From contig NZ_JAOPWR010000073.1 in assembly GCF_025965585.1 (NCBI RefSeq), forward strand, positions 1 to 46,867: a stretch of 46,867 nt of DNA, written 5' to 3'. The notes under the pieces were generated by a model that did not search any database, had not been told where the DNA came from, and was given only the letters and a program-made list of their open reading frames with translations. Of this stretch, positions 9,976-40,073 are shown piece by piece. Position 1 is the stretch's first letter, and the number at the start of each line of letters is the position of its first letter. The stretch is from Pseudonocardia sp. (GTDB taxonomy: Bacteria; Actinomycetota; Actinomycetes; Mycobacteriales; Pseudonocardiaceae). Position numbers and translations under genes: made by a program.

Positions 9976-11082
9976 TCAGCGGCCGGGGATCGGCTTCCCG
10001 CTGAACACGAACTTCTGCGCCAGCGCCACCGGGTCGTACGCCGCCGGCGTCTTCTCCGTCTCGGCCGCCGTGACCGTGACCGGCCGCGACTGCACGATGC
10101 AGACCGGGTCACCGGCCCGGCGGTGCCGGGAGATGACCCACTCGACGTCGACCGGGTAGCCGTAGTGCTCCTCGATGGCCTTGATGGCCGCGGCGATCGC
10201 CGCGATCTGCTCGTCGTCGAGCACCTTGCGGTCGGCGAGCTTGGCCGGCATGTCGATCTCGGTGACGGCGCCGTCGGCGAAGTCGAACGCCGAGACGACC
10301 GTCTTGTGCGCGACGTCGTACTTGAGCAGCCGCCCGTCGGCCTTGCCCACCTCGACATGGTCGGGGTTGACCAGGCCCTGCACGATCGCCTCGCCCCAGC
10401 CCCAGCTCGTCTCGATGACGATCCGGTCCGGCTTGCCGGTCACCGGGTGCACCGAGAACCCCACGCCCGACGCGCGGGCGTGGATGAGCTCGATGACCCC
10501 GACGGCGATCGGCATCGCGTGGTGCGAGATGCCCTTGCGCAGCCGGTAGGCCAGGGCGCGGGAGGTGAAGAGCGACCCCCAGCACTTCCGCACCGCGTCG
10601 ATCACGCGCTGCGGCCCCGAGATCCCGAGGTAGGTGTCGAAGATGCCCGCGAACGAGGCGTCGGCGGCGTCCTCACCCGTGGCCGACGAGCGCACCGCGG
10701 TGGGCACGTTGACGTCCACGCAGCGCAGGCACAGCTCCTCGTACGCGTCGGTGAGCTCCGCCTCGAGGGCCTCGGACATCGGGGTGGCCTCGAACAGCGA
10801 TCGGATCTCCGCCGAGGCCTTCTCCACCTCGGCGTCGGTGGGCTCGGTACCCAACCGGGAGATCACGTCCTCGATCCGCGGGTCGAGACCGGACTCGGAG
10901 CAGTGGCGCCGGTAGGCGTCCACCGTCACGGCGAACCCCTGCGGGACCTCCACCCCGGCCCGGTGCAGCTCGGTGAGCCGCCCCATCTTCGAGCCCGCCA
11001 GCGCGACCGCCTCCGCCGGATCGACCTCGTCGACCCAGACGACGGATCGTCCCGGTGCGGTCGTCGCCGCGTGCTCGGCCAT
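9976..11082 (-). CDS. PEP-synthase-like ATP-binding subunit (phenol/aryl kinase type, CreHI/Pps-like)
   Basis: A stand-alone ATP-binding (PPDK_N) domain of 368 residues. Visible features are GSKMGRLTELHRAGVEVPQGFAVT at the N-terminus, AVRSSATGEDAADASFAG, GWGEAIVQGLVNPDHVEV and a C-terminal DVEWVISRHRR...CIVQSRPVT. In PEP synthase this domain transfers the beta-phosphate of ATP to a histidine on the swivelling domain; here that domain is on the neighbouring polypeptide. The same two-gene split and sizes (about 40 and 65-70 kDa) are known for phenylphosphate synthase of Thauera and for the 4-alkylphenol kinase CreHI of Corynebacterium. ATG 11082 has a strong AAGGAG site. The upstream partner ends 14 bases away, so the two are co-transcribed. 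Phosphorylation of a phenolic substrate is inferred; a true PEP synthase is unlikely because no PEP/pyruvate-binding TIM barrel is present. Confidence 0.85.
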   Translation of the reverse strand: MAEHAATTAPGRSVVWVDEVDPAEAVALAGSKMGRLTELHRAGVEVPQGFAVTVDAYRRHCSESGLDPRIEDVISRLGTEPTDAEVEKASAEIRSLFEATPMSEALEAELTDAYEELCLRCVDVNVPTAVRSSATGEDAADASFAGIFDTYLGISGPQRVIDAVRKCWGSLFTSRALAYRLRKGISHHAMPIAVGVIELIHARASGVGFSVHPVTGKPDRIVIETSWGWGEAIVQGLVNPDHVEVGKADGRLLKYDVAHKTVVSAFDFADGAVTEIDMPAKLADRKVLDDEQIAAIAAAIKAIEEHYGYPVDVEWVISRHRRAGDPVCIVQSRPVTVTAAETEKTPAAYDPVALAQKFVFSGKPIPGR

Positions 11083-11096
11083 GAGAACTCCTTCGT

Positions 11097-12851
11097 TCAC
11101 TGGGCAGCAGCCGCCAGGTCGGCCGCCCGCTTCAGGATGGTGACCCGGCCGTTGGTGCCGTCCACCTCGATCTCGTCGCCGTCCTGGATCGCGAGGGTCG
11201 CGATGCCGATGGCCGTGACGGTCGGCACGCCGTACTCGCGGCCGACGATCGCCGCGTGGCTCAGCATGCCTCCACCGTCGCATGCCGCGGCGGCGATCTT
11301 GCCGAAGGCCGGCGTCCAGCTCGGCGAGGTGGACTCGCAGACCAGGATCGAGCCCGGCTCCAGGCGGTGCATGTCGTCGCTGCTCTGCAGCACGCGCGCG
11401 ATGCCGGTGGCGGTGCCCTTCGCGGCGGCGACGCCGGTCAGCACGGTCTCCGCGGCCGCGTTCGGGTTCTGCACGGCGCGGATCGCGGCCGGGTTGAGCC
11501 CGAAGATCTCGATGAGCACCGGGTCCTCGACCGTCTCGGGGACGGTGCCGAGCACCTTCGGCATCGAGCTGCGCAGCGCGCCCCAGTGGTCGAAGTACTG
11601 GCGGCGGTCGGAGACCAGGCTCTTGAGCTCGCCCTGGTAGGTCGAGCCGTTCGCGACGCCGAGCAGCTCCGGCCAGAACAGGTAGAGCATGTCGTCCTTG
11701 TGGTCGGCGCCCACGCGGCGTGCCAGCTCCTGGGAGACCCTGCGCAGCGGGATCATGACCTTCAGGTCGATGTAGTAGTTGTGGTCGTCCTGCCACCACG
11801 GGAAGTTCGCATCGAGGTTGGACTGCAGGCCGGCGTCGAAGACCGACTGCTCCTCCTTGGTCAGGCCCGAGCGGGCGGTCTCGATCGCCGCCTCGCGCTC
11901 GGCCATGGCGTTGCGCGCCGCGGCCTCGAAGTCGTGGGCCTCCTCCTTCAGCACGAAGGTCTTGATCAGGTCGAGCGGGATCGTGTTGTCCTCGATCCAG
12001 CTCGGCACGCCCACGTCGCAGGTGGCCTCCTGGCGGTGGCCGTAGACCTGCAGGAAGTCGTCGAAGTCGGTGAGCCACTGCGAGGCGGAGCCGCCGTGCG
12101 CCGAGAGCGCGTCACGGATGGGGGCGCCGGCGTTGTCGGCGAACACCTGCCCGAGGCCTGCCTGCTTGGCCTTGGTCGCGAGCTTGTACAGCTCGCGGTC
12201 GGTCTCCATGATCTTGGTGTCCTCGCCCTGGAGGAACTTGCCGATGTCGGCGGTGTTGATGCCCATCTCGGCGCAGGCGCCGTAGAAACCGAGGAAGTTC
12301 ACCAGCAGCGGGTACATCACACCGAAGTGGATCTCCATCGAGCGCTGGTGGTAGCGCCGGGCCTGGGTGAGCAGGCTCGCGAAGTCACCGGTCGGGACGG
12401 CGGTCAGGTCGATCCCCTGGAAGTAGTCCCAGGTCGCCTCGAGCTCGTCGCGGCCGCTCTCCCAGGTCTGCTTGTAGTTCTGCAGGAACCTGGGGAGGTT
12501 CGTGCCCAGACGCTGGGCGCGGGCTCCGATCTCACGGGGGTCGGACTCCGGGATGGCCGAGCCGTACAGGTGGGTGCCGGCGAACCGCGAGGTGATGCCG
12601 CGCCCGGGCGGCAGCGGCAGGGCCTCGGCGGCGTGCTGGGTGCCCCAGCAGTAACCGTCGTGACCCCAGGCGAAGGCGGCCAGCGGCGTCATGCCGCGCG
12701 ACCAGTGGAAGTCGAGGTACCAGAACTTGTCCTCGTCCTCCTTCTTGAACGGCCCGGTGCCGTCGATGACGTACGGGGACGCGATGTGCTCGGGCTTGAA
12801 GCCCGGGTACCACTCGCCGGTGTACGGCTCGACAGGGACGACAGTGGCCAT
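11097..12851 (-). CDS. PEP-utilizing-enzyme phosphohistidine subunit (aryl phosphate synthase type)
   Basis: A 584-residue protein. Roughly the first 440 residues form a mostly helical region of unknown fold class (WYPGFKPEHIASPYVIDG, VYGHRQEATCDVGVPSW), likely the phosphoryl-acceptor domain. The C-terminal 110 residues are the PEP-utilizers mobile domain with GTATGIARV, CESTSPSWTPAFGKIAA and GGGMLSHAAIVGREYGVP, whose His (about residue 532) would carry the phosphate. The domain order matches the large subunit of phenylphosphate synthase, CreH-like proteins and the C-terminal two thirds of rifampin phosphotransferase. ATG 12851 has an AGGAG site. It is the first gene of its operon and divergent from the Rieske oxygenase. 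A 27-base dyad lies 11 bases before the start. The substrate is unknown; phenolic is the best inference from context. Confidence 0.83.
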   Translation of the reverse strand: MATVVPVEPYTGEWYPGFKPEHIASPYVIDGTGPFKKEDEDKFWYLDFHWSRGMTPLAAFAWGHDGYCWGTQHAAEALPLPPGRGITSRFAGTHLYGSAIPESDPREIGARAQRLGTNLPRFLQNYKQTWESGRDELEATWDYFQGIDLTAVPTGDFASLLTQARRYHQRSMEIHFGVMYPLLVNFLGFYGACAEMGINTADIGKFLQGEDTKIMETDRELYKLATKAKQAGLGQVFADNAGAPIRDALSAHGGSASQWLTDFDDFLQVYGHRQEATCDVGVPSWIEDNTIPLDLIKTFVLKEEAHDFEAAARNAMAEREAAIETARSGLTKEEQSVFDAGLQSNLDANFPWWQDDHNYYIDLKVMIPLRRVSQELARRVGADHKDDMLYLFWPELLGVANGSTYQGELKSLVSDRRQYFDHWGALRSSMPKVLGTVPETVEDPVLIEIFGLNPAAIRAVQNPNAAAETVLTGVAAAKGTATGIARVLQSSDDMHRLEPGSILVCESTSPSWTPAFGKIAAAACDGGGMLSHAAIVGREYGVPTVTAIGIATLAIQDGDEIEVDGTNGRVTILKRAADLAAAAQ

Positions 12852-12861
12852 GCGAACTCCT

Positions 12862-12888
12862 CGGTCCGATGAAACGTTCGTCGGACCG
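12862..12888. promoter_or_regulatory. 27-bp dyad operator candidate before the kinase operon
   Basis: CGGTCCGA (12862-12869) and TCGGACCG (12881-12888) are perfect inverted repeats around a palindromic AACGTT core (12873-12878). The dyad directly abuts the ribosome-binding site of the phosphohistidine-subunit gene, so a bound repressor, or the same sequence folded in mRNA, could block expression. It differs from the GTTC-N9-GAAC sites nearby. Confidence 0.5.
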
Positions 12889-12921
12889 TGTCAGTGATCA
12901 CACGCCCGCGGCAAGCGGGCC

Positions 12922-12988
12922 GTTCTCCTCTGCCGAACGTGCCACCGTCCGAAACGGAGCTTTGCCGGGCCGTTCGGCGGCGGCGAAC
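12922..12988. promoter_or_regulatory. pair of GTTC-N9-GAAC palindromes in the divergent kinase/oxygenase promoter
   Basis: GTTC-N9-GAAC occurs at 12922-12938 and again at 12972-12988, with starts 50 bases apart (about five helical turns). The same half-site arrangement occurs before other units of this cluster (38443-38459, 40057-40073; near-copies at 22375-22391 and 22491-22507). IclR-family regulators often bind such spaced palindromes, and three IclR genes lie in the window; which one binds is not known. Confidence 0.45.
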
Positions 12989-13019
12989 ATCACCCTTCCC
13001 GCAGGTGGGAGCGATTTCC

Positions 13020-13025
13020 TAGCGT
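13020..13025 (+). promoter_or_regulatory. -10 box of a probably leaderless Rieske oxygenase transcript
   Basis: TAGCGT is followed by exactly seven bases and the ATG at 13033, the spacing that puts transcription start at the start codon. No ribosome-binding site is visible. A regulator bound at 12972-12988 would overlap the -35 region (about 12996-13001) or its upstream edge. Confidence 0.45.
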
Positions 13026-13032
13026 CCGGCTC

Positions 13033-14274
13033 ATGTTGAGTGCGGAGAAGAACGAACGCCTCACCCGGGTCGGACCGGGCACTCCCATGGGTGAGCTGCT
13101 GCGCCGTTACTGGTGGCCGGTGGCCACGCACGACATGGCGACGCGCATCCCCGTCAAGCGCCGACTGCTCGGCGAGAACCTGGTCCTGTTCCGGGACGGC
13201 AGCGGCACCGTCGGGCTCCTCGCCGAGCAGTGCCCGCACCGCCGGGCGGCCCTCTGGCTGGGCTGCACCGAGGAGCAGGGGCTGCGCTGCGGCTACCACG
13301 GCTGGCGCTTCGACGCCGAGGGCAACTGCCTGGAGCAGCCCGGCGAGCCGGCGGAGTCGACCTTCAAGGACCGCATCAAGGCCACCGCCTACCCCGTGCA
13401 GGAGCTGGGTGGGCTGATCTTCGCCTACCTCGGGCCGCTGCCGGCGCCGGAGCTGCCGCGCTACGACCTCTTCGTGTGGGAGGACGCATGGCGCGACATC
13501 GGCCACGCCGAGCTGCCCTGCAACTTCGTGCAGATCATGGAGAACTCCGTCGACCCGTACCACGTCGAGTGGCTGCACGGGCGCTACGGAACGTTCCTCC
13601 GCGAGCTGGACGGCAACACCACCCCGCTGCCCGTTGTCACGAAGAAGCACGTGAAGGTCGCGTTCGAGGTGTTCGAGCACGGCATCCTCAAGCGCCGCGT
13701 GCTCGAAGGGCACACCGAGGAGGACGAGGACTGGAAGGTCGGCCACCCGCTGGTGTTCCCGCACATGCTGCGCGTCGGCGCCGCGGGGCTGGCGACGTTC
13801 CAGATCCGGGTGCCGATCGACGACGAGAACACCTGGCACGTCTGGTACCAGACCTACCGACCCGAGGGCGGGGCCCCGCCCCAGCCGGAGATCCCCGTCT
13901 ACGAGGTGCCCCTGCGCGACGAGAAGGGCGAGTACCTCCGCGACTACGTCGACGGCCAGGACATCGTCGCGTGGATCACGCAGGGCCGGATCTCCGACCG
14001 CTCGCAGGAGCACCTGGGCAGGTCCGACCTGGGCGTCATCCTGCTACGCAAGCTCTACGCGGAGCAGATGGAGAAGGTGGCGGCGGGCGAGGACCCGCTG
14101 TGCACGTTCCGCGAGCCGCACGAGGTGATCGACCTGCCGATGGAGAAGGACAAGTTCGGCTCGGCCGTGGAGTTCCGGCAGCTCTGGACGCGGGAGAGCT
14201 CGATCCGCTACTCCCCCATCAAGGACGAGATCTTCGAGCTGTTCGGCGACCCGGTCCCGGCGTGGGCGAGTTGA
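13033..14274 (+). CDS. Rieske aromatic ring-hydroxylating oxygenase, alpha subunit
   Basis: A 413-residue terminal oxygenase. The N-terminal Rieske domain has CPHR...CGYHG with cluster ligands C67, H69, C86 and H89 (C-x-H-x16-C-x2-H). The catalytic domain has the mononuclear iron motif DPYHVEWLH with H177 and H182, preceded by ENS. A long C-terminal region with QGRISDRSQEHLGRSDLG resembles the phthalate-dioxygenase / LigXa O-demethylase branch, whose members act as homo-oligomers without a beta subunit. It inserts oxygen into or demethylates an aromatic substrate using electrons from a ferredoxin/reductase. No reductase is adjacent; a Rieske ferredoxin gene lies 28 kb away. Divergent from the aryl-kinase-like pair and followed, with overlap, by a zinc-ribbon ORF and a HAD phosphatase. 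The substrate is not readable from sequence. Confidence 0.93.
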   Translation: MLSAEKNERLTRVGPGTPMGELLRRYWWPVATHDMATRIPVKRRLLGENLVLFRDGSGTVGLLAEQCPHRRAALWLGCTEEQGLRCGYHGWRFDAEGNCLEQPGEPAESTFKDRIKATAYPVQELGGLIFAYLGPLPAPELPRYDLFVWEDAWRDIGHAELPCNFVQIMENSVDPYHVEWLHGRYGTFLRELDGNTTPLPVVTKKHVKVAFEVFEHGILKRRVLEGHTEEDEDWKVGHPLVFPHMLRVGAAGLATFQIRVPIDDENTWHVWYQTYRPEGGAPPQPEIPVYEVPLRDEKGEYLRDYVDGQDIVAWITQGRISDRSQEHLGRSDLGVILLRKLYAEQMEKVAAGEDPLCTFREPHEVIDLPMEKDKFGSAVEFRQLWTRESSIRYSPIKDEIFELFGDPVPAWAS

Positions 14275-14465
14275 CCGAGCTTGCGAGGTCATCAGGTGAC
14301 ACTGTCTCGTACTGTCCCGGGTGCGGCGCCGCGCTCGGGGAGGCCGCGTTCGTCCAGGAGTTCTGGTCGGGCGCCGACCGGCACTTCCTGTGCTGGTGCG
14401 CGGCGTGTGAGCTCATGTGCACCGTGGTGATCGGGGCACTCGTCGGAACGGAGCCGGAACACTGA
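14262..14465 (+). CDS. small zinc-ribbon-like protein
   Basis: A 67-codon frame starting at GTG 14262 inside the last codons of the oxygenase gene. A TTG at 14271 that overlaps the oxygenase stop is an alternative. The product has CPGCGAALGEA near the N-terminus and CWCAACELMC near the C-terminus, two cysteine pairs that could hold a zinc ion. Composition is not shadow-like. Overlap with the oxygenase upstream and the phosphatase downstream suggests translational coupling, so it may help assemble or regulate the oxygenase. I do not recognise a named family. Confidence 0.55.
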   Translation: MGELTELARSSGDTVSYCPGCGAALGEAAFVQEFWSGADRHFLCWCAACELMCTVVIGALVGTEPEH

Positions 14466-15115
14466 AAGCACTGCTGCTCGACCTCGGCGGGACGGTCTTC
14501 CGCTCCGGCTCGGAGATGATGGGGCTGTTCGGCGAGGCCGAGCCCGCGGTGCGCGAGGTGGTGGCGCGCCGCGGCCCGCTGGGCCCCGAGCGCGACGAGC
14601 TGTGGGAGCGGATGCTGCGCTCGGAGATCAGCGAGCGCGACTACTGGCAGCTCCGCTCCGACGAGATGGGCGCCGCCCTGGGCCGGGACTGGCCGATCCA
14701 GGAGTTCATGCACACCCTCTACTCGATGGCCGGCCACGACATCATCCGGCCCGCGGCCGCCGAGCTGGCCGCCGACGCGCGGGCGGCGGGCCACCGGGTC
14801 GGGGTGCTCACCAACGACCTGCGCGCCTTCCACGGCGACACGGCGATGGCGTCGCACCCGTTCCTGCGCAACATCGACGCGATGGTGGACGCGTCGGTCA
14901 CCGGCATCCTCAAGCCCGACCCCCGCGCCTACGCCCTCGCCGCGTCGGAGCTCGGCGCGGACCCGGCCGACATCGTGTTCGTCGACGACATGCCGTGGAA
15001 CGTCGAGGGCGCGCGGAAGGCGGGCATGATCGCGCTGGAGCTGGACCTGACGGCGCCGGACAAGGTGTTCGACGAGGCCCGCGAGGCGCTGATGTCGACC
15101 GGGACGACGCCGTGA
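14417..15115 (+). CDS. HAD-superfamily phosphatase-like hydrolase
   Basis: A haloacid-dehalogenase-fold protein. Motif I is LLLDLGGTVFR, with the nucleophile Asp present but the second acidic position Gly. Motif II is LTNDLRAF, motif III the Lys in GILKPDPRAY and motif IV VFVDDMPWNVEGA. GTG 14417 opens the frame, but CTG 14462 would place motif I at the very N-terminus (LKALLLDLGG), overlaps the upstream stop and has GGAG eight bases before it, so it may be the real start; length is then about 217 residues. Lack of the second motif-I Asp is seen in several HAD groups that are not classical phosphatases (for example epoxide-hydrolase N-domains), so activity is uncertain. In the cluster with an aryl-kinase-like enzyme a role in removing phosphate from an oxidised aryl phosphate is attractive but inferred. 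Confidence 0.82.
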   Translation: MHRGDRGTRRNGAGTLKALLLDLGGTVFRSGSEMMGLFGEAEPAVREVVARRGPLGPERDELWERMLRSEISERDYWQLRSDEMGAALGRDWPIQEFMHTLYSMAGHDIIRPAAAELAADARAAGHRVGVLTNDLRAFHGDTAMASHPFLRNIDAMVDASVTGILKPDPRAYALAASELGADPADIVFVDDMPWNVEGARKAGMIALELDLTAPDKVFDEAREALMSTGTTP

Positions 15116-15203: not shown

Positions 15204-15938
15204 GTGAGCGCCGGGATCGCCGTCGTCGTCGGGGCGTCCGGGGCGCTCGGGTCCGCCATCGCCGACCGGCTCGGCAAGGAGGGGCTGTCCGTCGTCGCGG
15301 TGTCGCGGTCCGGTGGGCCCGACCCGCTCGCCTGCGCCGCCGACATCGGCTCCGACGACGCGGTCACCGCCATCGCCGACGCCGTCGCGGCCGCCGGGGA
15401 CGGGCCCGTGCGGATGGTGGTGCAGGCCGCCGGGCTGCCCGCGGCCGGGCCGGTGGAGACGATCGTCCCCGACGCACTGGGCCACGCGGTCGCTCTGAAG
15501 GCGGGCGGGCTGTTGCGCCTGATCCGCGCGGTCGACGGGCGGCTGGAGCGCGGCGCACGCATCGTCGCGCTCGGCGGCCACTACGGCATCGAGCCCGCGC
15601 CGTACGCGTGCGCGGCGGGCGTCACCAACGCGGCGCTGGCCAACCTGGTGCGCCAGCTCGCGATCGCGTACGGGCCGCGCGGGATCACCACGCACCTCGT
15701 CGCGCCCGGCCCGGCCGACACCCCGCGGCTGCGCGGCCTGTCGGAGAAGGCGGCCGCCCAGCGGGGGGTGCCGGTGGAGCAGGTGCTCGCCGAGCGGGCC
15801 GCGGAGTCGCCGCTGGGCCGTCTCGTCACGCCCGAGGAGGTGGCGTGGTCGGTGGCGATGCTGCTGGCCCCGGAGGCCGACGCGCTACTGGGCTCGACGC
15901 TGTCGCTCGACGTCGGTGCCCGGAGGGGCATCTTCTGA
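15204..15938 (+). CDS. SDR-family protein with degenerate active site
   Basis: A 244-residue Rossmann-fold protein of the short-chain dehydrogenase/reductase family: GASGALGSAIADRL cofactor loop, QAAGLP at the NNAG position, and a C-terminal LLGSTLSLDVGA typical of complete SDRs. The catalytic region reads HYGIEPAPYACAAG: the tyrosine is present, but the Lys expected four residues later is Ala and the usual serine is missing. It may therefore be a non-oxidoreductase SDR or a cofactor-binding protein. GTG 15204 follows a G-rich ribosome-binding stretch. Transcribed behind the oxygenase/HAD genes, separated by a hairpin. Role unknown. Confidence 0.82.
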   Translation: MSAGIAVVVGASGALGSAIADRLGKEGLSVVAVSRSGGPDPLACAADIGSDDAVTAIADAVAAAGDGPVRMVVQAAGLPAAGPVETIVPDALGHAVALKAGGLLRLIRAVDGRLERGARIVALGGHYGIEPAPYACAAGVTNAALANLVRQLAIAYGPRGITTHLVAPGPADTPRLRGLSEKAAAQRGVPVEQVLAERAAESPLGRLVTPEEVAWSVAMLLAPEADALLGSTLSLDVGARRGIF

Positions 15939-15954: not shown

Positions 15955-16365
15955 TCAGGCGGAGGCGGCGCGCGCGGCGATCTCGGGCTTCCGCGCCACG
16001 CTGGCCGGCACCCCGCCGATCGCCCAGTCGTCGGGGTGCACCTGGATGATCCGGCCGCGGACGAGCTTCCGGTCGACGCCGAGCACGTCCACGATGATGT
16101 CGGTGAACGCCCCCAGCAGCCGCCTGCGCTGCTCGGCCGGGCGGCCCTCCAGCACGATCGCGGTGAAGTAGGGAGCCGACCCTGCCGCGGCCGGGACGCC
16201 GCCGGTGGCCCAGTGCTCGGGGCGGTGCAGCGTGACGTAGGCCCGCACCCGCTCCACGGGCGACTCCAGCACCTCGGCGTACCGGGCGCTCATGGAGGTG
16301 AGCAGCTCGGCGTGCTGGGCGGCGGTGTGCTTCCCGTCGACGAGATGCACCTCGAGGATCGGCAT
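15955..16365 (-). CDS. tautomerase-superfamily protein (double-length 4-OT type)
   Basis: A 136-residue protein beginning MPILEVHL, with the amino-terminal proline that is the catalytic base of 4-oxalocrotonate tautomerase relatives once Met is removed. The length is about twice a 4-OT monomer, and the second half repeats a similar pattern (YFTAIVLEGRPAEQRRRLLGAFTDIIVDVLG), as in fused-dimer tautomerases such as MSAD/cis-CaaD-like proteins. It probably isomerises or hydrates an unsaturated keto acid. Convergent with the preceding SDR (16 bases apart) and alone on its strand, so it is not in an obvious operon. The dedicated 67-residue 4-OT of the meta pathway is a separate gene at 41759. Confidence 0.85.
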   Translation of the reverse strand: MPILEVHLVDGKHTAAQHAELLTSMSARYAEVLESPVERVRAYVTLHRPEHWATGGVPAAAGSAPYFTAIVLEGRPAEQRRRLLGAFTDIIVDVLGVDRKLVRGRIIQVHPDDWAIGGVPASVARKPEIAARAASA

Positions 16366-17524: not shown

Positions 17525-18181
17525 TCATACCGGGTCGAGGTGGCCCTCCCAGGCCTCGATCGTCACGTTCAGGTCCGGCGCGGCGGCCGCGCCCCAGAGC
17601 TCCCGGCCGTCGAACCGGACGGTGTAGAGCCACTGCGGCTGCTCACCCGCGCCGTGCGCGTGGGCGTCGGGCAGGACGTGCGCGCCGTGCACCCGCTCGA
17701 CGACACCGGTCTTCCCGCGGGCGTAGCGGGGCAGCCGGGTGTGGCCGGTGGGGTGCACCACACGGGTGCGCACCGCGTCGCCGACCGCGAAGCGCGCCGG
17801 GCCCTGGGCGGGACGGTCGTACGGACTGCCCGCGGCGAGGGCCTTCTCGGCGTCGGTGGCCGACCACGCCCGCACCGGGACCCCGGGGGTGAGCACGCGG
17901 CGCTGGGCGATCTCGTCGGCGTCGACGAGCTCGGTGGCCACGAGCAGGCGTTCGAGGGCCTTCACCCAGATCGCGTAGTAGCTCGACGTCAGGTACTCGG
18001 CGGGGTGCAGGCTCTCCCGCGCGTGCCTGCCCGCGTCGATGCTCCAGCGCCCGGCGGCACCGATCGCGAGGGTCAGCGCGAGTGCGCGACGTTCCCAGTC
18101 GGCGTGGAAGTACTCACCCTCGGGCTCCGGGACGACCGGGCCGAAGCCCATCATCCCGCCGAGGTCGGCGGCACTGTTCAC
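17525..18181 (-). CDS. nthB: nitrile hydratase subunit beta
   Basis: Second subunit of the heterodimeric metalloenzyme that hydrates nitriles to amides. GTG 18181 ([15 protein letters not shown]) overlaps the alpha-subunit stop in a GTGA junction, giving 218 residues, the usual beta length. Seen are the helical N-domain ([32 protein letters not shown]) and the SH3-like C-domain with [19 protein letters not shown], whose arginines contact the oxidised cysteines of alpha, and a final [10 protein letters not shown]...WEGHL. Translationally coupled to nthA. The apparent extension of the frame up to 18451 runs inside nthA and is a shadow. Confidence 0.95.
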
Positions 18182-18747
18182 AACAGACCGCACCCGATCA
18201 TGGAGTCGCGGGTGACGAGCGCGGCGAGTGCGTCCTCGTCGAGGTGCTCGGTGCCGGCCGGGCGCATCGGCACGACGAGGTAGCGGACCTCGGCGGTGGA
18301 GTCGTGCACCGTCACCCGCGTGGACGCGGGCAGCGTGACGCCGAAGTCGGCGAGCACGGAGCGGGGGTCGAGCACCACGCGCGAGCGGTACGCCGCCGAC
18401 TTGTACCAGGTGGGCGGCAGCCCGAGCACCGGCCACGGATAGCAGGAGCACAGCGTGCAGACCACGACGTGGTGCTGCTCGGGCGTGTTCTCCAGCGCCA
18501 CCATGTGCTCGCCCTGCCGCCCGCCGTAGCCCAGCTCGGCGATGGCCGCGGTGGCGTCGGCGCGCAGCCGCTCGCGGTAGGCCGGGTCCGTCCAGGACCG
18601 GGCGACGACGCGGGCCCCGTTGCGCGGCCCGACATCGTGCTCGTACGTGGTGATGATCTTCTCGAGCGCGGCCGGATCGACGTAGCCCTTCTCGACGAGG
18701 ATCATCTCCAGCGCCTCGACCCGCAGGGCCATCCCGTCGTCAGCCAC
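18178..18747 (-). CDS. nthA: nitrile hydratase subunit alpha, cobalt type
   Basis: Metal-binding subunit; the metal centre activates the nitrile carbon for water attack. The claw motif is [18 protein letters not shown] with C97, C100, S101 and C102; Thr after the first Cys (CTLCSC) is characteristic of cobalt enzymes, versus Ser in iron enzymes. The sequence resembles Pseudonocardia thermophila nitrile hydratase by recall (KALESML-like N-terminus, [36 protein letters not shown]). GTG 18747 gives 189 residues and aligns with that N-terminus; an ATG at 18732 is an alternative. No P14K/NhlE-type activator gene is visible next to nthAB. The upstream 200 bases separate it from the dehydrogenase operon. 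Confidence 0.95.
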
Positions 18748-18860
18748 GGGCACCACCCTATCCGCCGGATCTGCGATCCGTCCGTCCTTCGCGCTGCGAC
18801 GACGGGCGTGACGGCGTCCGCCCCTGCACGCGCGTCGGGTCACCAGCGCGTGCGTAGCTG

Positions 18861-18887
18861 CGCGCGCGTAGGGCGGGAACGCGCGCG
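18861..18887 (-). terminator. GC hairpin after the dehydrogenase operon
   Basis: CGCGCGCGT (18861-18869) and ACGCGCGCG (18879-18887) are perfect inverted repeats with a nine-base loop. It lies between the dehydrogenase 3' end and nthA, in low-complexity CG-rich sequence, so it may be a terminator or simply a compositional effect. Confidence 0.35.
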
Positions 18888-18910
18888 TGGGGCGGGGGCG
18901 CGCCACTCGC

Positions 18911-18964: not shown

Positions 18965-20389
18965 CTAATTCTTGATCGCCATCACCACGGCCTTGGGTTC
19001 GGTGAAGAACTCGCGGCTGAAGTTGCCGCCCTCCCGGCCCCAACCCGAGTCGGCGAAGCCGCCGAAGGGCGCGCGCAGGTCCCGGATGAAGAAGCAGTTG
19101 GTCCAGATCGTCCCTGCGCGCAGCTGCGCGGCGACGCGGTGGGCCCGCGACAGGTTCTCCGTGAAGATCATCGCGTTGAGGCCGTAGGGCGAGTCGTTGG
19201 CCGCCGTGACCGCCTCGGCCTCGGAGTCGAACGGCGTGACGGTCACGACCGGGCCGAAGATCTCCTCGCACTGGATCGGCGAGTCGGCGGGGGCGTCGAC
19301 GACGACCGTCGGCTTGACGACCCAGCCCTCCCCCAGCCCGCCGGTGAGCACCTTCCCTGCCGGGGTCTCCAGGTAGCCGGTGACCTTGGTGTAGTGCTCC
19401 TGCGACGCCAGCGGGCCCAGCTGCGTGGCCGGGTCCTTCGGGTCGCCGATCACCAGCGCCTCCGCCGCGGCGACGAACCGCTCGAGGAACTCCTCCAGGA
19501 CCCCGCGCTCGACGTAGAGCCGGGAGCCCGCGAGGCACACCTGCCCGGCGTTGGTGAAGATCGCCTTGATCGACCAGTCGACGGCGGAGTCGAGGTCGGC
19601 GTCGGCGAACACCAGGTTGGCGCCCTTGCCACCCAGTTCCAGGCTGACGGGCGTGAGGTTCTTCGCCGCCGCGCCGGTGATGATGCGACCGGTGCCCGAC
19701 TCACCGGTGAACGTGATCCGGTCGACGCGGGGGTCCTCGGTGAGCGCCGAGCCGGCGGAGTCCGGGCCGTAGCCGTGCAGGACGTTGAGCACGCCCGCCG
19801 GGATGCCCGCCTCCAGCGCGAGCCGCGCCATGATCGTCGCGGATGCGGGGGTGTCCTCCGCGGGCTTGAGGACGATCGTGTTGCCCCAGGCCAGCGCCGG
19901 CGCGACCTTCCAGCTCTCCAGCATCAACGGGAAGTTCCACGGCGCCACCGCCGCGACGACGCCCGCGGGCTCATAGCGGGTGTAGGCGTGGTGGCCGGTG
20001 TCCATCGGCAGCGCTTCGGCCATCGCCAGGCGGGCGTGGTCGGCGAAGAAGCGGAAGTTCTGCGCCGCGCGCGGCACGTCCTTCCCCTTGGCGTCGCTGA
20101 TCGGCTTGCCCATGTCCCGAGTGTCGGCCATGGCCAGCTCGTCGCTGTGCTCGACGATCAGGTCGGCGAACCTGTGGATCAGCGCGCCCCGCTCGGCGAA
20201 GCCCATCCGCGGCCAGGGGCCCTCGTCGAACGCCTTGCGCGCGGCCGTCACGGCCAGGTCGGCCTCGGGCGCGCCGCCCAGAGCGACCTGCGCCCAGGGC
20301 TCCTGCGTATAGGGATCGATCGAGTCGAAGCGCCTGCCGTCGAGGCTCTCGCGCTCCTTGCCGTCGATGACGTGTCCGAAGAACTCCAT
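18965..20389 (-). CDS. 2-hydroxymuconic semialdehyde dehydrogenase
   Basis: NAD+-dependent aldehyde dehydrogenase of 474 residues that oxidises the ring-cleavage product 2-hydroxymuconic semialdehyde to 4-oxalocrotonate (XylG/DmpC role). Motifs: NAD-site APWNFPLMLESWKVAPAL, FTGESGTG, catalytic Glu in SLELGGKGANLVF, catalytic Cys in FTNAGQVCLAGSRLYV, and the C-terminal FADSGWGREGGNFSREFFTEPK. ATG 20389 shares its A with the TGA of the aldolase gene (TGATG), so translation is coupled. The family also contains other semialdehyde dehydrogenases; the operon with meta-pathway aldolase and acetaldehyde dehydrogenase supports this substrate. Its 3' end is duplicated next door (18911-18960). Confidence 0.9.
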   Translation of the reverse strand: MEFFGHVIDGKERESLDGRRFDSIDPYTQEPWAQVALGGAPEADLAVTAARKAFDEGPWPRMGFAERGALIHRFADLIVEHSDELAMADTRDMGKPISDAKGKDVPRAAQNFRFFADHARLAMAEALPMDTGHHAYTRYEPAGVVAAVAPWNFPLMLESWKVAPALAWGNTIVLKPAEDTPASATIMARLALEAGIPAGVLNVLHGYGPDSAGSALTEDPRVDRITFTGESGTGRIITGAAAKNLTPVSLELGGKGANLVFADADLDSAVDWSIKAIFTNAGQVCLAGSRLYVERGVLEEFLERFVAAAEALVIGDPKDPATQLGPLASQEHYTKVTGYLETPAGKVLTGGLGEGWVVKPTVVVDAPADSPIQCEEIFGPVVTVTPFDSEAEAVTAANDSPYGLNAMIFTENLSRAHRVAAQLRAGTIWTNCFFIRDLRAPFGGFADSGWGREGGNFSREFFTEPKAVVMAIKN

Positions 20390-21429
20390 CACTTGGCCTC
20401 GGCCTTCTTCGTCGCCAGCTCGATCGCCACGTCGATGATCATGTCCTCCTGGCCACCGACGTACCCGAGCTCGCCGACGCGGGCGAGGATGTCGTAGGCC
20501 GGGATGCCGTAGCGCTCGGACGCGCGCTCGGCGTGCAGCAGGAAGCTCGAGTAGACGCCCGCGTAGCCCTGCACGATGGCGTTGCGGTCCATCGAGGGCC
20601 AGCGCGGGATGAACGGCTTGACCACGTCCTCCGCGGCGGCCAGCACGCCCGGCACGTCGACGCCGGTGGCGATCTCGAGCTTGTCGAACGTGGCCGCGAG
20701 CACCTCTGTGGGCGCGTTGCCCGCGCCCGCGCCCAGCGCGCACAGCGCGCCGTCGATCTGCTTGGCCCCGTTGTTGTAGGCCAGCACCGAGTTGGCGACG
20801 CCCATCGAGAGGTTCTGGTGGCCGTGGAAGCCGACCTGCGCCTGGTGGCCGATCTCCCGCACCAGCGCCTCGACGCGCACCTGGGCGGTGTCGAGCACGA
20901 GCGCCCCGGCCGAGTCGACGCAGTAGACGCACTGCGCACCCGCGTCGACCATGATCCGGGCCTGCCCGGCGAGCTCCTCGGGAGTGGTCTTGTGCGCCAT
21001 CATGAGGAACCCGACGGTCTCCATGCCCAGCTCACGGGCCAGCCCGAAGTGCTGGATGGAGACGTCGGCCTCCGTGCAGTGGGTGGCCATGCGCGCCACG
21101 CGGGCACCTGCGTCGAAGGCTCGCTGCAGGTCGTCGCGGGTACCGATGCCGGGCACCAGCAGCACCGCGATCTCGGCCTGCGTGGCCTCGTCGACGGCGG
21201 CGGCGATCAGCTTGATCTCGTCCTCGGCGGAGAAGCCGTAGTTGAACGACGAGCCGCCCAGGCCGTCGCCGTGGGTCACCTCGATGACCTCCACACCCGC
21301 CCCGTCCAACGCGTGCACGGTGGCGCGCACCTGGCCCTCGGTGAACTGGTGGGCCATCGCGTGGCTGCCGTCGCGCAGCGTGGTGTCGGTGATCCGGACG
21401 TCGTTGCGGATGGTCGGCATGTCACTCAT
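20389..21429 (-). CDS. mhpE: 4-hydroxy-2-oxovalerate aldolase
   Basis: Cleaves 4-hydroxy-2-oxovalerate to pyruvate and acetaldehyde, channelling acetaldehyde to its partner dehydrogenase. The 346-residue protein has the HMGL-like barrel signature [17 protein letters not shown] (catalytic Arg and Asp), the metal site [15 protein letters not shown] (HxH), and the C-terminal communication domain ([24 protein letters not shown]). The start ATG 21429 overlaps the previous stop (ATGA); a second Met three codons later is possible. Operon order is acetaldehyde dehydrogenase, aldolase, semialdehyde dehydrogenase. Confidence 0.96.
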
Positions 21430-22331
21430 GCGGAGGCTCCCAGCTTCGCCTGGGCCATCAGCTCGCCCACGCGGGCGGCCGCGGCGGTCATGATGTCGAG
21501 GTTGCCCGCGTACTCGGGCAGGTAGTCGCCGTTGCCCTTGACCTCGAGGAACACCGCGACGCGGCCGTTGCCCGACCAGTTGTCGCGGGGCTCGTCGAAC
21601 TGCGGCTCGGCGCGCAACGTGTAGCCGGGCACGTACTGCTGGACCTCCACGGCCATCTCGTGGATCGACGCGCTGATCGCGTCGCGGTCGGCGTCCGGGC
21701 CGATCATGCAGAACACCGTGTCGCGCATGATCATCGGCGGCTCGACGGGGTTGAGGATGATGATCGCCTTGCCCCGCGCCGCGCCACCGACCTCGGCCAC
21801 GGCCTGCGACGTGGTGTGGGTGAACTCGTCGATGTTGGCGCGCGTGCCCGGCCCGGCGCCGCGCGAGGCCACCGACGCGACGATCTCCGCGTAGGGCACC
21901 GGCGTGATCCGCGAGACCGCGTGCACCATCGGGATCGTCGCCTGGCCACCGCAGGTGATCATCGAGACGTTGGGCGCGGCGATGTGGTCGCGGAGGTTCA
22001 CCGGCGGGCAGACCATCGGCCCGAGGTGCGCGGGCGTGAGGTCCACAGCCTGGATGCCGGCCTCCGCATAGCGCGGGGCGTTGGCGATGTGGGCCTTCGC
22101 CGAGGTGGCCTCGAAGACGATCTGAGGGAGGGGATCCTGGCGCATCAGCCAGTCCACGCCCTCGGCCGAGGCGGCGATGCCCTTGTCGCGGGCGCGCGCC
22201 AAACCGTCGGACTCGACGACGCCGACCATGTAGGCGACCTCGATGGCACTGCTGCGCTGCAGCTTGGCCAGCAGGTCCGTGCCGATGTTCCCCGGCCCGA
22301 CGATCGCGGCCGGCACTCTCTCGGTGCTCAT
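21426..22331 (-). CDS. mhpF: acylating acetaldehyde dehydrogenase
   Basis: Converts acetaldehyde, NAD+ and CoA to acetyl-CoA, the last meta-pathway step, in complex with the aldolase. 301 residues, the normal size: N-terminal Rossmann motif [14 protein letters not shown], catalytic Cys in [14 protein letters not shown], and family segments [20 protein letters not shown] and [15 protein letters not shown]. First gene of its operon and divergent from an IclR regulator. The 155-base shared promoter contains an 18-bp perfect palindrome 32 bases upstream of the ATG and an overlapping GTTCCG-type site, so control by that regulator is likely. Confidence 0.97.
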
Positions 22332-22362: not shown

Positions 22363-22391
22363 CGGAACGTCCACGTTCCGGTCAGCGAAAC
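22363..22391. promoter_or_regulatory. IclR operator candidate before mhpF
   Basis: CGGAACGT-CC-ACGTTCCG (22363-22380) is a perfect 18-bp palindrome. Its right half also opens a second, overlapping element GTTCCG-GTCAG-CGAAAC (22375-22391), which shares 15 of 17 bases with a site before the hydratase operon at 40057-40073. It lies between divergent mhpF and the iclR gene. Confidence 0.65.
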
Positions 22392-22486
22392 GTATGCGTC
22401 GCGCGGACGCCGAGGAGCACGCCCGTCGCCGGGTTCCGACGGGAGTGCCGGTGGACCGGGCCCGCATCCGGGGCCACCATGGGCCG

Positions 22487-27557: not shown

Positions 27558-30500
27558 TCAGGCGACGCCGAGCTCGGCCAGCCGCGCGCGGTAGCGCTCG
27601 ACGTTGGCCAGCTTGACGTCCTCGTAGCCGCGCACCATGTCGGCCGCCTCGGCCGCGGCCGTGGCGGTGGCGTACGAGTCCGCCGTCAGCCCACTCGCCA
27701 GCCGCAGCACCATGGCCCGGTACTCGTCGCGGAGCTGCCGCTCCAGGCGCCGGATCTCGGTGCGGCCGAAGGGGTCGAGCGGGGTGCCGCGCAGCGCCTT
27801 GCCGCGGGCGAGGGTCTGGAGCACGGGCTTGGCCCACGGCCCCAGCGCGATCTTCTTGTCGCGGCCGATGGCCTTGAGCATCGGCGGATGCAGGCGGTAG
27901 CGCTGCTTGACCCCGCCCGGGACCTCCGCGGCCAGGGTGGCCTCGAACGCCGGGTCGGTCAGCAGCCGCGCCACCTCGTACTCGTCCTTGTACGCGGTGA
28001 GCTTGTACAGCCCGCGGGCGACGGCCTCGCTGAACGTGGCGTCCTGGCCGAGCCTGCGCTCGGCCCGCCAGACGGCGAGCACGTCGTCGACGTAGCGCCG
28101 CGCGGTGCGCTCGCTCTGGAAGCCGACGAGCTGGGCGGCGCGGATCTCCACCAGGCGGCGGGTCTCGCCGTCGAGCTCCCGCAGCGAGATCGACGCCGGG
28201 AGCGGTGCGGGCGGAACCGCCGCCGTGGACGACGCCGTGGCGGCGGCGAAAGCGGCCGGGTCGGCGACGGCCACACGGCCCCACCGGAACGCGGCGGTGT
28301 TGACGGCCACGGCCACGCCGTTGAGCTCGATGGCCCACTCGATGGCCTCGGCCGATAGCGGCAACGCCCCGGACTGGTACGCGGCCCCCACAACCAGCAG
28401 GTTGGCCGGCATCGCGTCGCCGAACAGGGCGTTGGCCGCCGCCTGCGCGTCGAGGGTCACGACGTCGCGGGTGACGCTGCGGATGCGCCCCACCAGCGCC
28501 GGCACGTCCGGCCTGGCGGCCGCGACGTCGCGGACCATCGCGCCCGTCGGCACCGGGCTCGTCGAGACGACGCCGAAGGTGTGCTCCGGGTCGGCGTAGG
28601 CGAGGTTCTTGGTGTCGGCGCCGACCAGAGCGTCGAACGCGAGGTAGCAGCCCACGGTGCCGACGCCGACGCGGTTGGCCGGGCCGAGCGTGGCGGCGTC
28701 GGCGGCGATGCGCAGGTGCGAGGTGACGGGACCGGCCTTCTGCGAGAGGCCGGTCTGGTCGACGCCGTGCACGGCCAGCCCGTCGCGGACGGCGGCCGAG
28801 CCGAGCACCTGGTTGACCGTGACGATGCCGGTGCCGCCGATGCCCGCGAGGAACACGTCACCCGTGGCCGGACGGGCCACGTCCGGGACCGGCGGGGGTT
28901 CGCAGCGGTCCGGCCGGGACGTCGACGACGAGCCCGCGCCGATACCCGCTCCGCCTACGCTCCGCTCGGGAGGCAGCTCCACCGTCACGAACGACGGGCA
29001 GTCGCCCGCGAGGCAGGAGTAGTCGGTGTTGCAGGAGGTCTGGTCGATGCGGGTCTTGCGGCCGAACTCGGTGTCGGTGGGCTGCACCGACAGGCAGTTG
29101 CTCTTGACGCCGCAGTCACCGCAGCCCTCGCAGACCGCCTCGTTGATGATCACTCGGGTGGGCCGGATCGCGAGCGTGCCGCGCTTGCGCAGCCGCCGCG
29201 ACTCCGCGGCGCAGCGCTGGTCGTACACCAGCACCGACACACCCTCGACCGACGCGAGCACCTTCTGCGCCTCGTCGAAGCGGTCGCGGTGCCACAGGTC
29301 GACGCCCACGGGCAGGGACGGCAGCGCGCGGTAGCGCTCCGGCTCGTCGGCGCACACGATGATCTTCGAGACACCCTCGGCGAGGAGCTTCGCCGTCAGC
29401 TGCGGCACCTCGAGCCCGCCGGACGCGTCCTGCCCGCCGGTCATGGCGACGGCGCGGTTGTAGAGCAGCTTGTAGGTGATCGACACCCCGGCCGCGATGC
29501 ACGCCTGCACCGCGAGCTGGCCGGAGTGGGCGAACGTGCCGTCACCCATGTTCTGGAACATGTGCTCGGCACGGGTGAACGGCGCTTGTCCGATCCACTG
29601 CGCGCCCTCGCCGCCCATCTGCGTGAGGGAGCTGACCTCGCTCTCGGGGCGGTGGGTCAGCGCGACCATGGCGTGGCAGCCGATGCCCCCTCCCGCTACC
29701 GCGCCCTCGGGGACGATCGTCGAGCGGTTGTGCGGGCAGCCGGAGCAGAAGTACGGCGTGCGGTTGACGGGCAGCAGCTCGAGCTTCGGGGGGTCGCGGC
29801 GCACGGGCGTCAGATCGACGCGGTCCCCCAGCACCCGGCGCAGCGGCCCGGCCAGCGCCCCGGCGGTCAGCTCGCCCGCGACGGGCACGAGCGGCGCGCC
29901 GGACCCGTCGGTGGAGCCGATCACCGCAGGGGCGGGCGACAGGCCGTAGAGCACGTCGCGCACCGCCGTCTCGACGAACGCGCTCTTCTCCTCCACCACC
30001 AGCACGGTGTCGAGGCCCTCGGCGAAGTCCCGGAGCAGGTCGCGCTCCAGCGGGTGGATCATGCCCAGCCGCAGGAGCTTGATGCCCGCGCGGCGACAGC
30101 CGTCGTCGTCGAGCCCGAGGTCGCGCAGTGCCTGCTGCACGTCGGTGAACGCCTTGCCACCGGCGACGATGCCGAGCCACGCAGCATGACCATCCGCGTC
30201 GACCTCGACGGTGTTGATGGGGTTGGCCGCCAGGAACGCGCGCAGCATCGCCCATCGCGGCCCGTACATCTGCGCCTCGGCCTCGAGCGACGCGGGCGGG
30301 ACCAGCATGGGGATCTGCTTGTACTCCCAGGGCTTCCCGTCCCACTCGATCTCCGGCACGGTGATCTCGACGTCCCCGGCGCCGCCGTCGACGGTGTAGA
30401 TGCCGTCGGCCACGTCGGCGGTGATCTTCATGCCCACCCACATGCCCGACGCGCGCGACATCGCGACGCCGTAGCGGCCCAGGCGCACGATCTCCTCGGC

Positions 30501-34545: not shown

Positions 34546-35391
34546 CTACTCCTGAGACCGCTCCAGCGCCGCGGAGACGGAGGCGGCCGCCCGGCGGACG
34601 CTCTGCACGACCGCGATCTTGCGCGCCCCCAGCACGCGTGAGGTCCCGCCGACCACGGAGATCGCCGCGACCGCGACCGTGCGGTCACCGCGCTTCACCA
34701 CGATCGGCGCCGCCACCGACGACATGCCCATCGTGTGCTCTTCCCGCGAAGCCGCGTGTCCGTCGATCCGCACCTGGCGCAGCACCTGCTTGTAGCGCTG
34801 CGGGTCGACGATCGTGAACGGGGTGCGCCGCTGGAAGCCGCGCTCGAGGATCGCCCTCGCCATCGACGGGTTGTACGCCGCGATGGCCTTGGCCGCGCTG
34901 GAGCTGTGGCCCGGGCCACGCCGGTAGAGCTCGGTGTGGAACATCGTGCCGGCGCTGTTGCCCTCCAGCCGGTCGACGTAGAGCACGTCGGCGCCGACGG
35001 GCACCGCGAGCTGCGCGGTCTCCCGCAGGATCTCGCGCAGCTCGCCGAGCACGGGCAGGGCGAGCTCGCGGAGCATCAGCCGGTCGACCGCGAGCTGCCC
35101 GATCTCGAACAGCCGCAGCCCCAGCCGGTAGCGCCCGGAGCGGGACCGTTCCAGCATCCCGCTCGTGGCCAGCGCCGCCAGCATCCGGCACGCGGTGCTC
35201 TTGGCGATGCCCAGCTCGGCGGCCACACGCGTGGCGCCGAGCTCCCGTTCCTGCTCGAAGCAGCCCAGCACCGCCATGGCGATGGAGACCGACCGGAGCG
35301 GGCCGTCCTCCCGCTCCGGCACGAGCTCCGGGACCTCCGGTGCGAGGGAGGCGGGATCGAGGATCGCGGCGTCGAGATCCGTCAGCGTCAT
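34546..35391 (-). CDS. IclR-family transcriptional regulator (dioxygenase operon)
   Basis: 281 residues. A 30-residue acidic lead is followed by the winged helix (SVSIAMAVLGCFEQERELGATRVAAELGIAKSTACRMLAALATSGML) and the effector domain (VPVGADVLYVDRLEG, GPGHSSSAAKAIAAYNP, MGMSSVAAPIVV). It follows the histidine phosphatase gene by 21 bases in the same direction as the two catechol dioxygenase genes, so it may be co-transcribed with the operon it controls. One of three IclR proteins in the window. Confidence 0.92.
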   Translation of the reverse strand: MTLTDLDAAILDPASLAPEVPELVPEREDGPLRSVSIAMAVLGCFEQERELGATRVAAELGIAKSTACRMLAALATSGMLERSRSGRYRLGLRLFEIGQLAVDRLMLRELALPVLGELREILRETAQLAVPVGADVLYVDRLEGNSAGTMFHTELYRRGPGHSSSAAKAIAAYNPSMARAILERGFQRRTPFTIVDPQRYKQVLRQVRIDGHAASREEHTMGMSSVAAPIVVKRGDRTVAVAAISVVGGTSRVLGARKIAVVQSVRRAAASVSAALERSQE

Positions 35392-40056: not shown

Positions 40057-40073
40057 GTTCCGGTGAGCGGAAC
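40057..40073. promoter_or_regulatory. perfect IclR-type operator before the hydratase operon
   Basis: GTTCCG-GTGAG-CGGAAC is a perfect 6+5+6 palindrome 70 bases upstream of the hydratase gene's ribosome-binding site. The same or nearly the same 17-mer occurs at 22375-22391 and 22491-22507, including the GTSAG spacer, linking the two lower-pathway operons. Confidence 0.6.

Follow-up and report, generated by a model that had tools for sequence, protein, structure and literature searches.

A split dikinase co-inherited with a Rieske oxygenase in Pseudonocardiaceae marks a candidate route from methoxyphenols to catechol by way of a phosphate ester

A candidate phosphorylation-dependent catabolic module

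The 46,867-nucleotide contig NZ_JAOPWR010000073.1 of the soil actinobacterium Pseudonocardia sp. (assembly GCF_025965585.1), hereafter the window, encodes a two-component dikinase, consisting of an ATP-grasp subunit (KATP) and a phosphohistidine subunit (KHIS), whose genes are divergent from that of a Rieske oxygenase. The same 47 kb holds a gene set for catechol meta-cleavage, several members of which fall below curated cut-offs for exact function. We propose, with a confidence that is evenly poised, that these genes form a regulated catabolic module in which a plant-type phenol with an ortho substituent, guaiacol or another 2-methoxyphenol being the likeliest, would be phosphorylated, O-demethylated by the Rieske oxygenase, dephosphorylated and meta-cleaved. 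The gene content, co-inheritance, gene orders and a shared palindrome are read directly from the genomes, and from them we infer the substrate, the order of the steps and the regulator.

By homology, the dikinase would place the beta-phosphate of ATP on the phenolic hydroxyl via phosphohistidine, and the Rieske oxygenase would then act on the phosphate ester, most likely by O-demethylation to catechol monophosphate. The histidine phosphatase of the catechol 2,3-dioxygenase (C23O) operon, possibly together with a HAD-family hydrolase, would free catechol, which two C23O enzymes and the DmpI, DmpH, DmpE, HOA and AcDH set would degrade, while expression of the set would be induced by an IclR-type regulator acting at GTTC-N9-GAAC. 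Known LigM substrates carry a carboxylate, and the phosphate might give a neutral phenol a comparable anionic handle, like the carboxylate on the usual substrates of Rieske and LigM O-demethylases. Phosphorylation of a phenol as the opening step is known from few aerobic pathways, and clusters joining kinase, Rieske oxygenase, phosphatase and extradiol dioxygenases, with the Rieske enzyme replaced in some by LigM or a diiron hydroxylase, raise the prospect that the oxidation itself may depend on the phosphate; in an excerpt of PMC12167813 the reason for phenol phosphorylation in aerobic pathways is stated as unclear. If the proposal is true, another route leading to catechol from lignin-type phenols would be gained, together with a regulon motif predicting further members. 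The central features are as follows.

9976-11082, minus strand: KATP, ATP-grasp subunit of the two-component dikinase, 368 aa (PPDK_N, 7.3e-97, the only Pfam domain; motifs VRSSATGED at 130 and QSRPV at 331)
11097-12851, minus strand: KHIS, predicted substrate-binding and swivel (phosphohistidine) subunit, His532, 584 aa (PEP-utilizers, 3.9e-22; GGMLSHAAIV; model matches RPH)
12922-12938: palindrome GTTC-N9-GAAC, probable operator (motif search)
12972-12988: second GTTC-N9-GAAC between the divergent KHIS and Rieske genes (motif search)
13033-14274, plus strand: Rieske oxygenase of clade R1, 413 aa, probable O-demethylase or hydroxylase of an aryl phosphate (Rieske, 2.6e-16; LigXa_C, 8.7e-12)
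14262-14465, plus strand: 67-aa Cys-rich protein, a recurring Rieske neighbour (no Pfam match)
14462-15115, plus strand: HAD-family hydrolase, motif I DLGGT with the second Asp missing (Pfam, motif alignment)
34546-35391, minus strand: IclR-type regulator IclR2, candidate regulator (50-58% identical relatives adjoin the kinase in seven loci)
35413-36444, minus strand: histidine phosphatase, best candidate aryl-phosphate phosphatase (His_Phos_1; RHG and THSG in 12 of 12 aligned)
36441-37370, minus strand: C23O (TIGR03211, above cut-off)
37449-38363, minus strand: second C23O (TIGR03211, above cut-off)

Co-inheritance and gene order

The kinase is rare, being found at E<=1e-60 in two of 396 Actinomycetota genomes, its own included. 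Among 297 Pseudonocardiaceae genomes, the kinase is present in 33 and a Rieske oxygenase of this family likewise in 33 (E<=1e-100), the two together in 31, which is more than a chance association; the exceptions carry the kinase only (G451, G621) or the Rieske only (G585, G588). Within the 25 listed genomes of the window's own genus, both genes occur in 10, neither in 15 and one alone in none.

A Rieske tree of 52 rows separates clade R1 (17 rows, one of which duplicates the window) from clade R2 (28 rows) at 100/99, and a kinase tree, described below, separates clade A, to which the window belongs, from clade B. One scan yielded 52 kinase loci, many of them cut by contig ends, among which 16 have R1 no more than 4 kb from the kinase, 20 contain R2 only, five a LigM-type gene and four a diiron phenol hydroxylase at the threshold used, while seven have none of these. 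A HAD or histidine phosphatase gene was present in 29 of these loci and a meta-cleavage gene in 37, and a Fer2 reductase (labelled VanB-like on weak NCBIfam matches) comes after the kinase genes in L031, L035 and L039. In the mycobacterial loci L043 to L049, L047 left aside, a clade-A kinase lies near diiron phenol hydroxylase and meta-cleavage genes.

In L088 (G585), a clade-B kinase takes part in a single row of genes in one direction: C23O, C23O, histidine phosphatase, KATP, KHIS, Rieske, Cys-rich protein, HAD, Fer2 reductase, DmpE, AcDH, HOA, DmpH, DmpI and HMSD. The 16 kb fetched around it contain no dehydrogenase other than HMSD and AcDH, neither one for a dihydrodiol nor one for a benzyl alcohol, so that the Rieske product should become a catechol by dephosphorylation alone. 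A search with the L088 Rieske matched 13 of 396 Actinomycetota genomes, and 12 loci were fetched from the 12 others. Nine of them have a CreH-type KHIS, as judged by best hit, beside the Rieske gene, and in seven the order is C23O-C23O-HisPhos-KATP-KHIS-Rieske; among the remainder, L119 is cut at the Rieske gene, and L117 and L118 are kinase-free with Gfo/Idh-type neighbours. The Rieske oxygenases of these clade-B loci are cousins of that in the window. In L087 (G432), a clade-A kinase is contiguous with a MetE-like gene, two C23O genes and a histidine phosphatase gene, 67-84% identical to the window counterparts, and this set adjoins a clade-B pair with an R2 Rieske.

A shared palindrome and its candidate regulator

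Five exact copies of GTTC-N9-GAAC occur in the window against 0.38 expected, a count reached by none of 100 shuffles; two lie between KHIS and the Rieske gene, one each before the C23O and DmpE genes, and one inside a gene at 6169. Genome-wide the count is 75, compared with 9 for a backward control. Upstream of KHIS, the palindrome is exact in 43 of 51 loci and has one mismatch in two, the six loci without it being mycobacterial, and no other half-site with an N9 spacer appears there in more than seven of the 51. Over these loci and the window together, 88 of 124 copies fall in upstream intergenic DNA, which makes up 5.5% of the sequence, counts that are not independent because the loci are related. 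Out of 402 half-site/spacer pairs with 20 or more copies, two have a higher intergenic fraction (CGTT-N11 and TTCC-N7), and both are registers of the same palindrome. Raw enrichment was rejected as sole proof, since GATC-N11 and TCGA-N5 half-sites are more enriched in the window, and for this reason reliance was placed on the location of the copies.

The palindrome also precedes genes away from the dikinase. It is exact before LigM in two of the four loci examined (L030, L032) and has one mismatch in L037 and L050; before MetE-like genes it is exact in five of six examined, the window's own genome included, and has one mismatch in the sixth, each time 60-63 bp upstream. Two R1 genes far from a kinase have it at 60 bp, one exact and one with one mismatch, and in most mycobacterial loci it stands before the hydroxylase or DmpE genes instead. 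One-mismatch sites are weak evidence generally (8 found against 2.24 expected, for a longer pattern), and R2 and R3 of the window's own genome were rejected as regulon members because they have only such sites, 186 and 104 bp upstream. The own-genome MetE-like gene lies on another contig (G000:C488:38337-39497, L120:7338-8504), with its palindrome 63 bp upstream. The regulator of this set is probably IclR2, whose relatives (50-58% identity) stand beside the kinase in L030, L031, L032, L035, L037, L042 and L050. The other palindromes and meta-cleavage genes of the window are listed here.

18965-20389, minus strand: 2-hydroxymuconic semialdehyde dehydrogenase-like (HMSD; TIGR02299/TIGR03216, below cut-off)
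20389-21429, minus strand: 4-hydroxy-2-oxovalerate aldolase (HOA; TIGR03217, above cut-off)
21426-22331, minus strand: acylating acetaldehyde dehydrogenase (AcDH; TIGR03215, above cut-off)
22374-22392: one-mismatch copy of the palindrome upstream of the AcDH gene, weak (motif search)
38443-38459: palindrome before the C23O/His-phosphatase genes (motif search)
40057-40073: palindrome before the DmpE gene (motif search)
40143-40928, plus strand: 2-oxopent-4-enoate hydratase-like (DmpE; TIGR03220, below cut-off)
40930-41694, plus strand: 2-oxo-3-hexenedioate decarboxylase-like (DmpH; TIGR03218, below cut-off)
41759-41962, plus strand: 4-oxalocrotonate tautomerase-like (DmpI; Pfam Tautomerase)

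A first-pass annotation of this DNA had suggested that a phenolic compound is phosphorylated, oxidised by the Rieske enzyme and dephosphorylated. This idea has gained strong comparative support from co-inheritance with the Rieske family in 31 of 33 genomes (the window's own Rieske type being in only 12), from the palindrome, and from the gene row found in seven of the 12 loci and in L088, and the module can now be extended through the meta-cleavage genes; the type of oxidation is revised, O-demethylation appearing more likely than the methyl oxidation of the Cre system.

The dikinase belongs to a separate clade

Gene calls and Pfam agree with the first-pass description of a split minus-strand pair divergent from a Rieske gene that is followed by a HAD gene. 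They also bear out its remark on the PEP/pyruvate barrel, which was found in neither subunit by Pfam scan and is absent from the structure model of KHIS. Apart from a PEP-utilising mobile domain at residues 498-568, KHIS has no Pfam domain. Its model (pLDDT 85) is like rifampin phosphotransferase, which matched over about the whole length (E 1.7e-17, TMq 0.63), while PPDK-type chains match mostly over the swivel domain. The architecture, with a separate ATP-grasp subunit, a joint substrate and swivel subunit and no barrel, is that of PpsAB, CreHI and HpeHI. The catalytic-His motif GGxxxH is kept as GGMLSH with His532, and the residue at -2 is Leu, with no regulatory Thr there. An excerpt of PMC12167813 names HpeHI, CreHI and PpsAB as two-component phenolic dikinases and states for them a T/S-xx-GG-xxx-H signature before the catalytic His. 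KHIS departs from it in having Cys524 at the T/S place, eight residues before the His, a Cys that is invariant in 53 window-like rows.

Reference subunits were taken from annotated plasmids of the Cre type (L071, L072), the ppsAB type with ppc genes (L073) and the Hpe type with biotin carboxylase (L075). Their phosphohistidine subunits share 43-45% mutual identity, whereas KHIS has 26-31% to each (about 30% to the Cre type, 28% to the HpeHI type and 26% to the PpsAB type). In a tree of 60 phosphohistidine subunits (no outgroup, midpoint root, long branches flagged), KHIS falls on the 43-row side (A) and all references on the 17-row side (B), with the split at 100/100. By sequence, the window kinase is thus not of the CreHI or PpsAB type and forms part of a separate clade, of which, to our knowledge, no member has been characterised. 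The likeness to phenylphosphate synthase and CreHI that had been drawn earlier is one of the two-subunit split and does not extend to sequence or tree.

Clade-B pairs also occur near or alongside the window type. The window's own genome holds a CreHI-type pair on another contig and in another context (G000:C292, L078:6715-9653), with 48% and 40% identity to CreH and CreI, respectively, of the Rhodococcus plasmid type, and in P. bannensis (L009:14500-17417) and P. acidicola (L008, from about 19181) a CreHI-type pair lies about 2-7 kb from the window-type pair. A third phosphohistidine-type subunit, 37-38% identical, was seen in two other Pseudonocardiaceae loci (L090, L091), where its neighbours are a gene distantly like MetE and an AraC-type regulator.

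The Rieske oxygenase and the candidate phosphatases

The Rieske oxygenase has both expected motifs, CxH/CxxH (C67, H69, C86, H89) and D-xx-H-xxxx-H (D174, H177, H182), and these residues and D332, which we take to be the likely Asp ligand of the 2-His-1-Asp site, are invariant in 15 aligned rows. The closest solved structures are of the phthalate-dioxygenase type (7fjl, 7fhr; 187 bits), with DdmC at 62 bits; a predicted structure of the window enzyme reached pLDDT 41 and was not used. All R1 rows adjoin a clade-A kinase except L084 and L085. R2 takes in the clade-B-linked enzymes (L009, L087, L088, L108-L116) as well as those of Pseudonocardia and Actinomycetospora, and since most of the latter loci have only a clade-A kinase, the two-by-two pairing of kinase and Rieske clades has exceptions.

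The Cys-rich open reading frame between the Rieske and HAD genes recurs beside Rieske genes in relatives. For the HAD gene itself, no ATG, GTG or TTG stands directly before motif I, and the start is either a CTG overlapping the preceding stop or the GTG at 14417. Motif I of HAD phosphatases is DxDx(T/V); here it reads DLGGT, and the second Asp is absent in every relative whose motif I was inspected. A HAD gene is present, as the first-pass annotation had said, and because of the missing Asp its role as the phosphatase is doubtful. The histidine phosphatase, encoded directly downstream of C23O and keeping RHG and the second His (THSG) in all 12 aligned sequences, is the likelier aryl-phosphate phosphatase. 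In L086 (7707-8329, G621) the HAD homologue appears in two pieces in the gene calls.

Methoxyphenol as the candidate substrate and competing explanations

The argument for a methoxyphenol starts from L032 (Nocardioides PD653-B2), where a gene near the kinase is LigM-like (E 2e-123 to 5tl4) and an MTHFR-like gene is present. Its KHIS is 86% identical to that of the Amycolatopsis locus L035, which has a Rieske gene (ATP subunits, 64%), so that the two kinases probably share a substrate while the oxidant has been exchanged. R1 and LigM occur together in none of the 52 loci. In a search over 24 genome handles, two pairs of which are the same assembly, LigM of this type (67% identity or more) was confined to the genomes of L030, L032, L036, L037 and L050, in L036 on another contig, and was not found in the window's own genome; a MetE-like gene (Meth_synt_2) matched at 68% or more in 17 handles, the own genome included, and in seven there was none. 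LigM beside a KHIS 86% identical to a Rieske-linked one, together with a MetE-like gene sharing the palindrome, suggests a methoxyphenol that would be O-demethylated to catechol phosphate. A bolder form of this proposal is that a removable phosphate handle lets interchangeable demethylases (R1, LigM-type, possibly a MetE-like cobalamin-independent methyltransferase alone) demethylate a neutral methoxyphenol to catechol monophosphate, an undescribed intermediate, in two separate kinase-Rieske lineages of Actinomycetota; we hold it as a tentative idea, somewhat more apt to fail than to stand. The P450 genes of L032 (beside LigM) and L031 were rejected as guaiacol demethylases, the former being P450cin-like rather than GcoA-type and the latter a generic P450.

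Several observations weigh against the proposed module. R1 (72% identity or more) occurs in only 12 of the 33 kinase genomes, the rest holding only 54-56% types, and in two of the 12 (G530, G546) it lies far from the kinase; with only R2 in 20 of the 52 loci and neither clade in 16, sequence comparison indicates that R1 is not needed by every clade-A kinase. In the mycobacterial relatives (49-52%) and in L086, the neighbouring oxygenase is a diiron phenol hydroxylase rather than an O-demethylase; C23O genes are present in the mycobacterial loci as well, so that phenol itself may be the substrate there. Relatives of the Rieske enzyme that come without a kinase have Gfo/Idh/MocA and LigB genes as neighbours, a setting suggestive of ring dihydroxylation in the sister Rieske groups, and alignment comparison revealed no basic residue specific to kinase-linked Rieske enzymes, so that a signature of this kind was rejected. 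Clade-B operons are mostly without the palindrome, which is exact before C23O only in L088 and L114. The resemblance of the MetE-like protein to MetE is only distant (Meth_synt_2 1.4e-12, well short of the NCBIfam cut-off), and its gene is found with R1, with LigM or with neither nearby. Formaldehyde dehydrogenase, which would be expected to follow Rieske O-demethylation, is encoded in five of five genomes and has the palindrome in none of the five loci, and was rejected as a regulon member.

The main rival, which we consider unlikely, is that the Rieske enzyme performs a ring hydroxylation or dioxygenation on an aryl phosphate derived from phenol or an alkylphenol, either ortho-hydroxylating it to catechol monophosphate or attacking the carbon that bears the phosphate, which would then be lost. 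The phthalate-dioxygenase-type structural matches, the neighbours of the sister Rieske genes, the diiron hydroxylase occupying the Rieske's place in mycobacterial loci and L086, and products ending in C23O would all fit this; but the exchange for LigM/MTHFR with an 86% identical substrate subunit and the co-regulated MetE-like gene point to a methyl group, L088 has no dihydrodiol dehydrogenase in its 16 kb, and a phosphatase would be superfluous if the attack fell on the phosphate carbon. It is improbable, in our view, that the kinase only traps or scavenges phenol and that the Rieske enzyme of the same regulon works on an unphosphorylated compound. Trapping is proposed for HpeHI in an excerpt of PMC12167813, mycobacterial kinases belong to phenol hydroxylase operons, no phosphatase having been found there in the loci viewed, and R1 genes far from a kinase exist; against this, kinase, phosphatase and Rieske genes adjoin in two kinase lineages, and the Hpe pathway processes phosphorylated substrate only (PMC9618137, in excerpt).

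We give still less credence to a Cre-like course, in which a cresyl phosphate would be oxidised at its methyl group by the Rieske enzyme, and the resulting benzyl alcohol by the short-chain dehydrogenase/reductase (SDR) encoded at 15204-15938. A copy of this SDR (at least 55% identity) is present in 29 of the 52 loci, the Cre-type cluster has an SDR and an aldehyde dehydrogenase (ALDH) by annotation, and a methyl group is the target of the Rieske enzyme TsaM together with its SDR partner TsaC (PMC10579966, in excerpt), but the 16 kb of L088 contain neither an SDR nor a benzaldehyde dehydrogenase, and the C23O genes of the window are not what a carboxylated product would need. That the pair is a PEP synthase or antibiotic-inactivating kinase lying near a Rieske gene by chance seems very improbable: although KATP matches PEP synthase models, all below cut-off, and the fold of KHIS is most like rifampin phosphotransferase, the missing PEP barrel, the co-inheritance, the gene order and the palindrome shared with aromatic catabolism speak otherwise.

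Comparison with known pathways

In the Cre pathway, a phenol is phosphorylated, oxidised and then dephosphorylated. This pathway (4-cresol in Corynebacterium, with Rhodococcus plasmid relatives L071 and L072) resembles the module proposed for the window in its split dikinase, its presumed phenolic substrate, the placing of an oxidation between phosphorylation and dephosphorylation, and a nearby IclR regulator. By annotation, the Cre-type cluster holds a P450, a 2Fe-2S protein, an FAD oxidoreductase, an HD protein, an SDR and an ALDH, whereas the window has the Rieske oxygenase, His-phosphatase/HAD and C23O, and no P450 or HD protein was found among the window genes scanned at 7.9-18.9 kb. The Hpe pathway (acetovanillone in Rhodococcus, L075 type) would share with the window a split dikinase, aerobic operation, a lignin-type phenol and a phosphatase, but there a biotin enzyme, HpeCBA, carboxylates the phosphoester and, according to an excerpt of PMC9618137, only phosphorylated phenol; the same scan of the window found no biotin-dependent carboxylase HpeCBA. 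In PpsAB, the phenylphosphate synthase of anaerobic phenol degradation (L073), a split dikinase likewise acts on phenol, as would be the case here, but phenylphosphate carboxylase genes come next.

Going by a paper title, GdmA reportedly acts on guaiacol. In an excerpt of PMC10579966, GdmA is a known Rieske guaiacol O-demethylase that groups by similarity with DdmC and TsaM; it would share enzyme family and reaction type with the present proposal, while the window Rieske is nearer the phthalate-dioxygenase type. For LigM, the vanillate/3-O-methylgallate O-demethylase, the five loci with a LigM-type gene are all without R1. Among the matches listed in a search of CC-licensed papers, no title or abstract start mentioned a kinase-Rieske pathway or guaiacol phosphate.

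Other genes of the window

The following genes complete the features considered here.

15204-15938, plus strand: SDR dehydrogenase (Pfam)
15955-16365, minus strand: tautomerase-family protein (Pfam)
39179-39967, plus strand: another IclR-type regulator (family from BLAST clustering)
41959-42321, plus strand: Rieske-type ferredoxin, candidate electron carrier (Pfam Rieske)

Between the tautomerase and HMSD genes lie nitrile hydratase beta and alpha genes (17525-18906, minus strand), and L001 and L003 have a similar pair close to the kinase cluster, L124 one close to C23O. A 236-aa open reading frame (38472-39182, plus strand), with no Pfam match, is kept before the C23O genes in many relatives. 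The C23O half further contains a large gene of the indolepyruvate ferredoxin oxidoreductase family (27558-31055, minus strand), and the start or end of such a gene, 78% identical, follows the C23O genes in L087.

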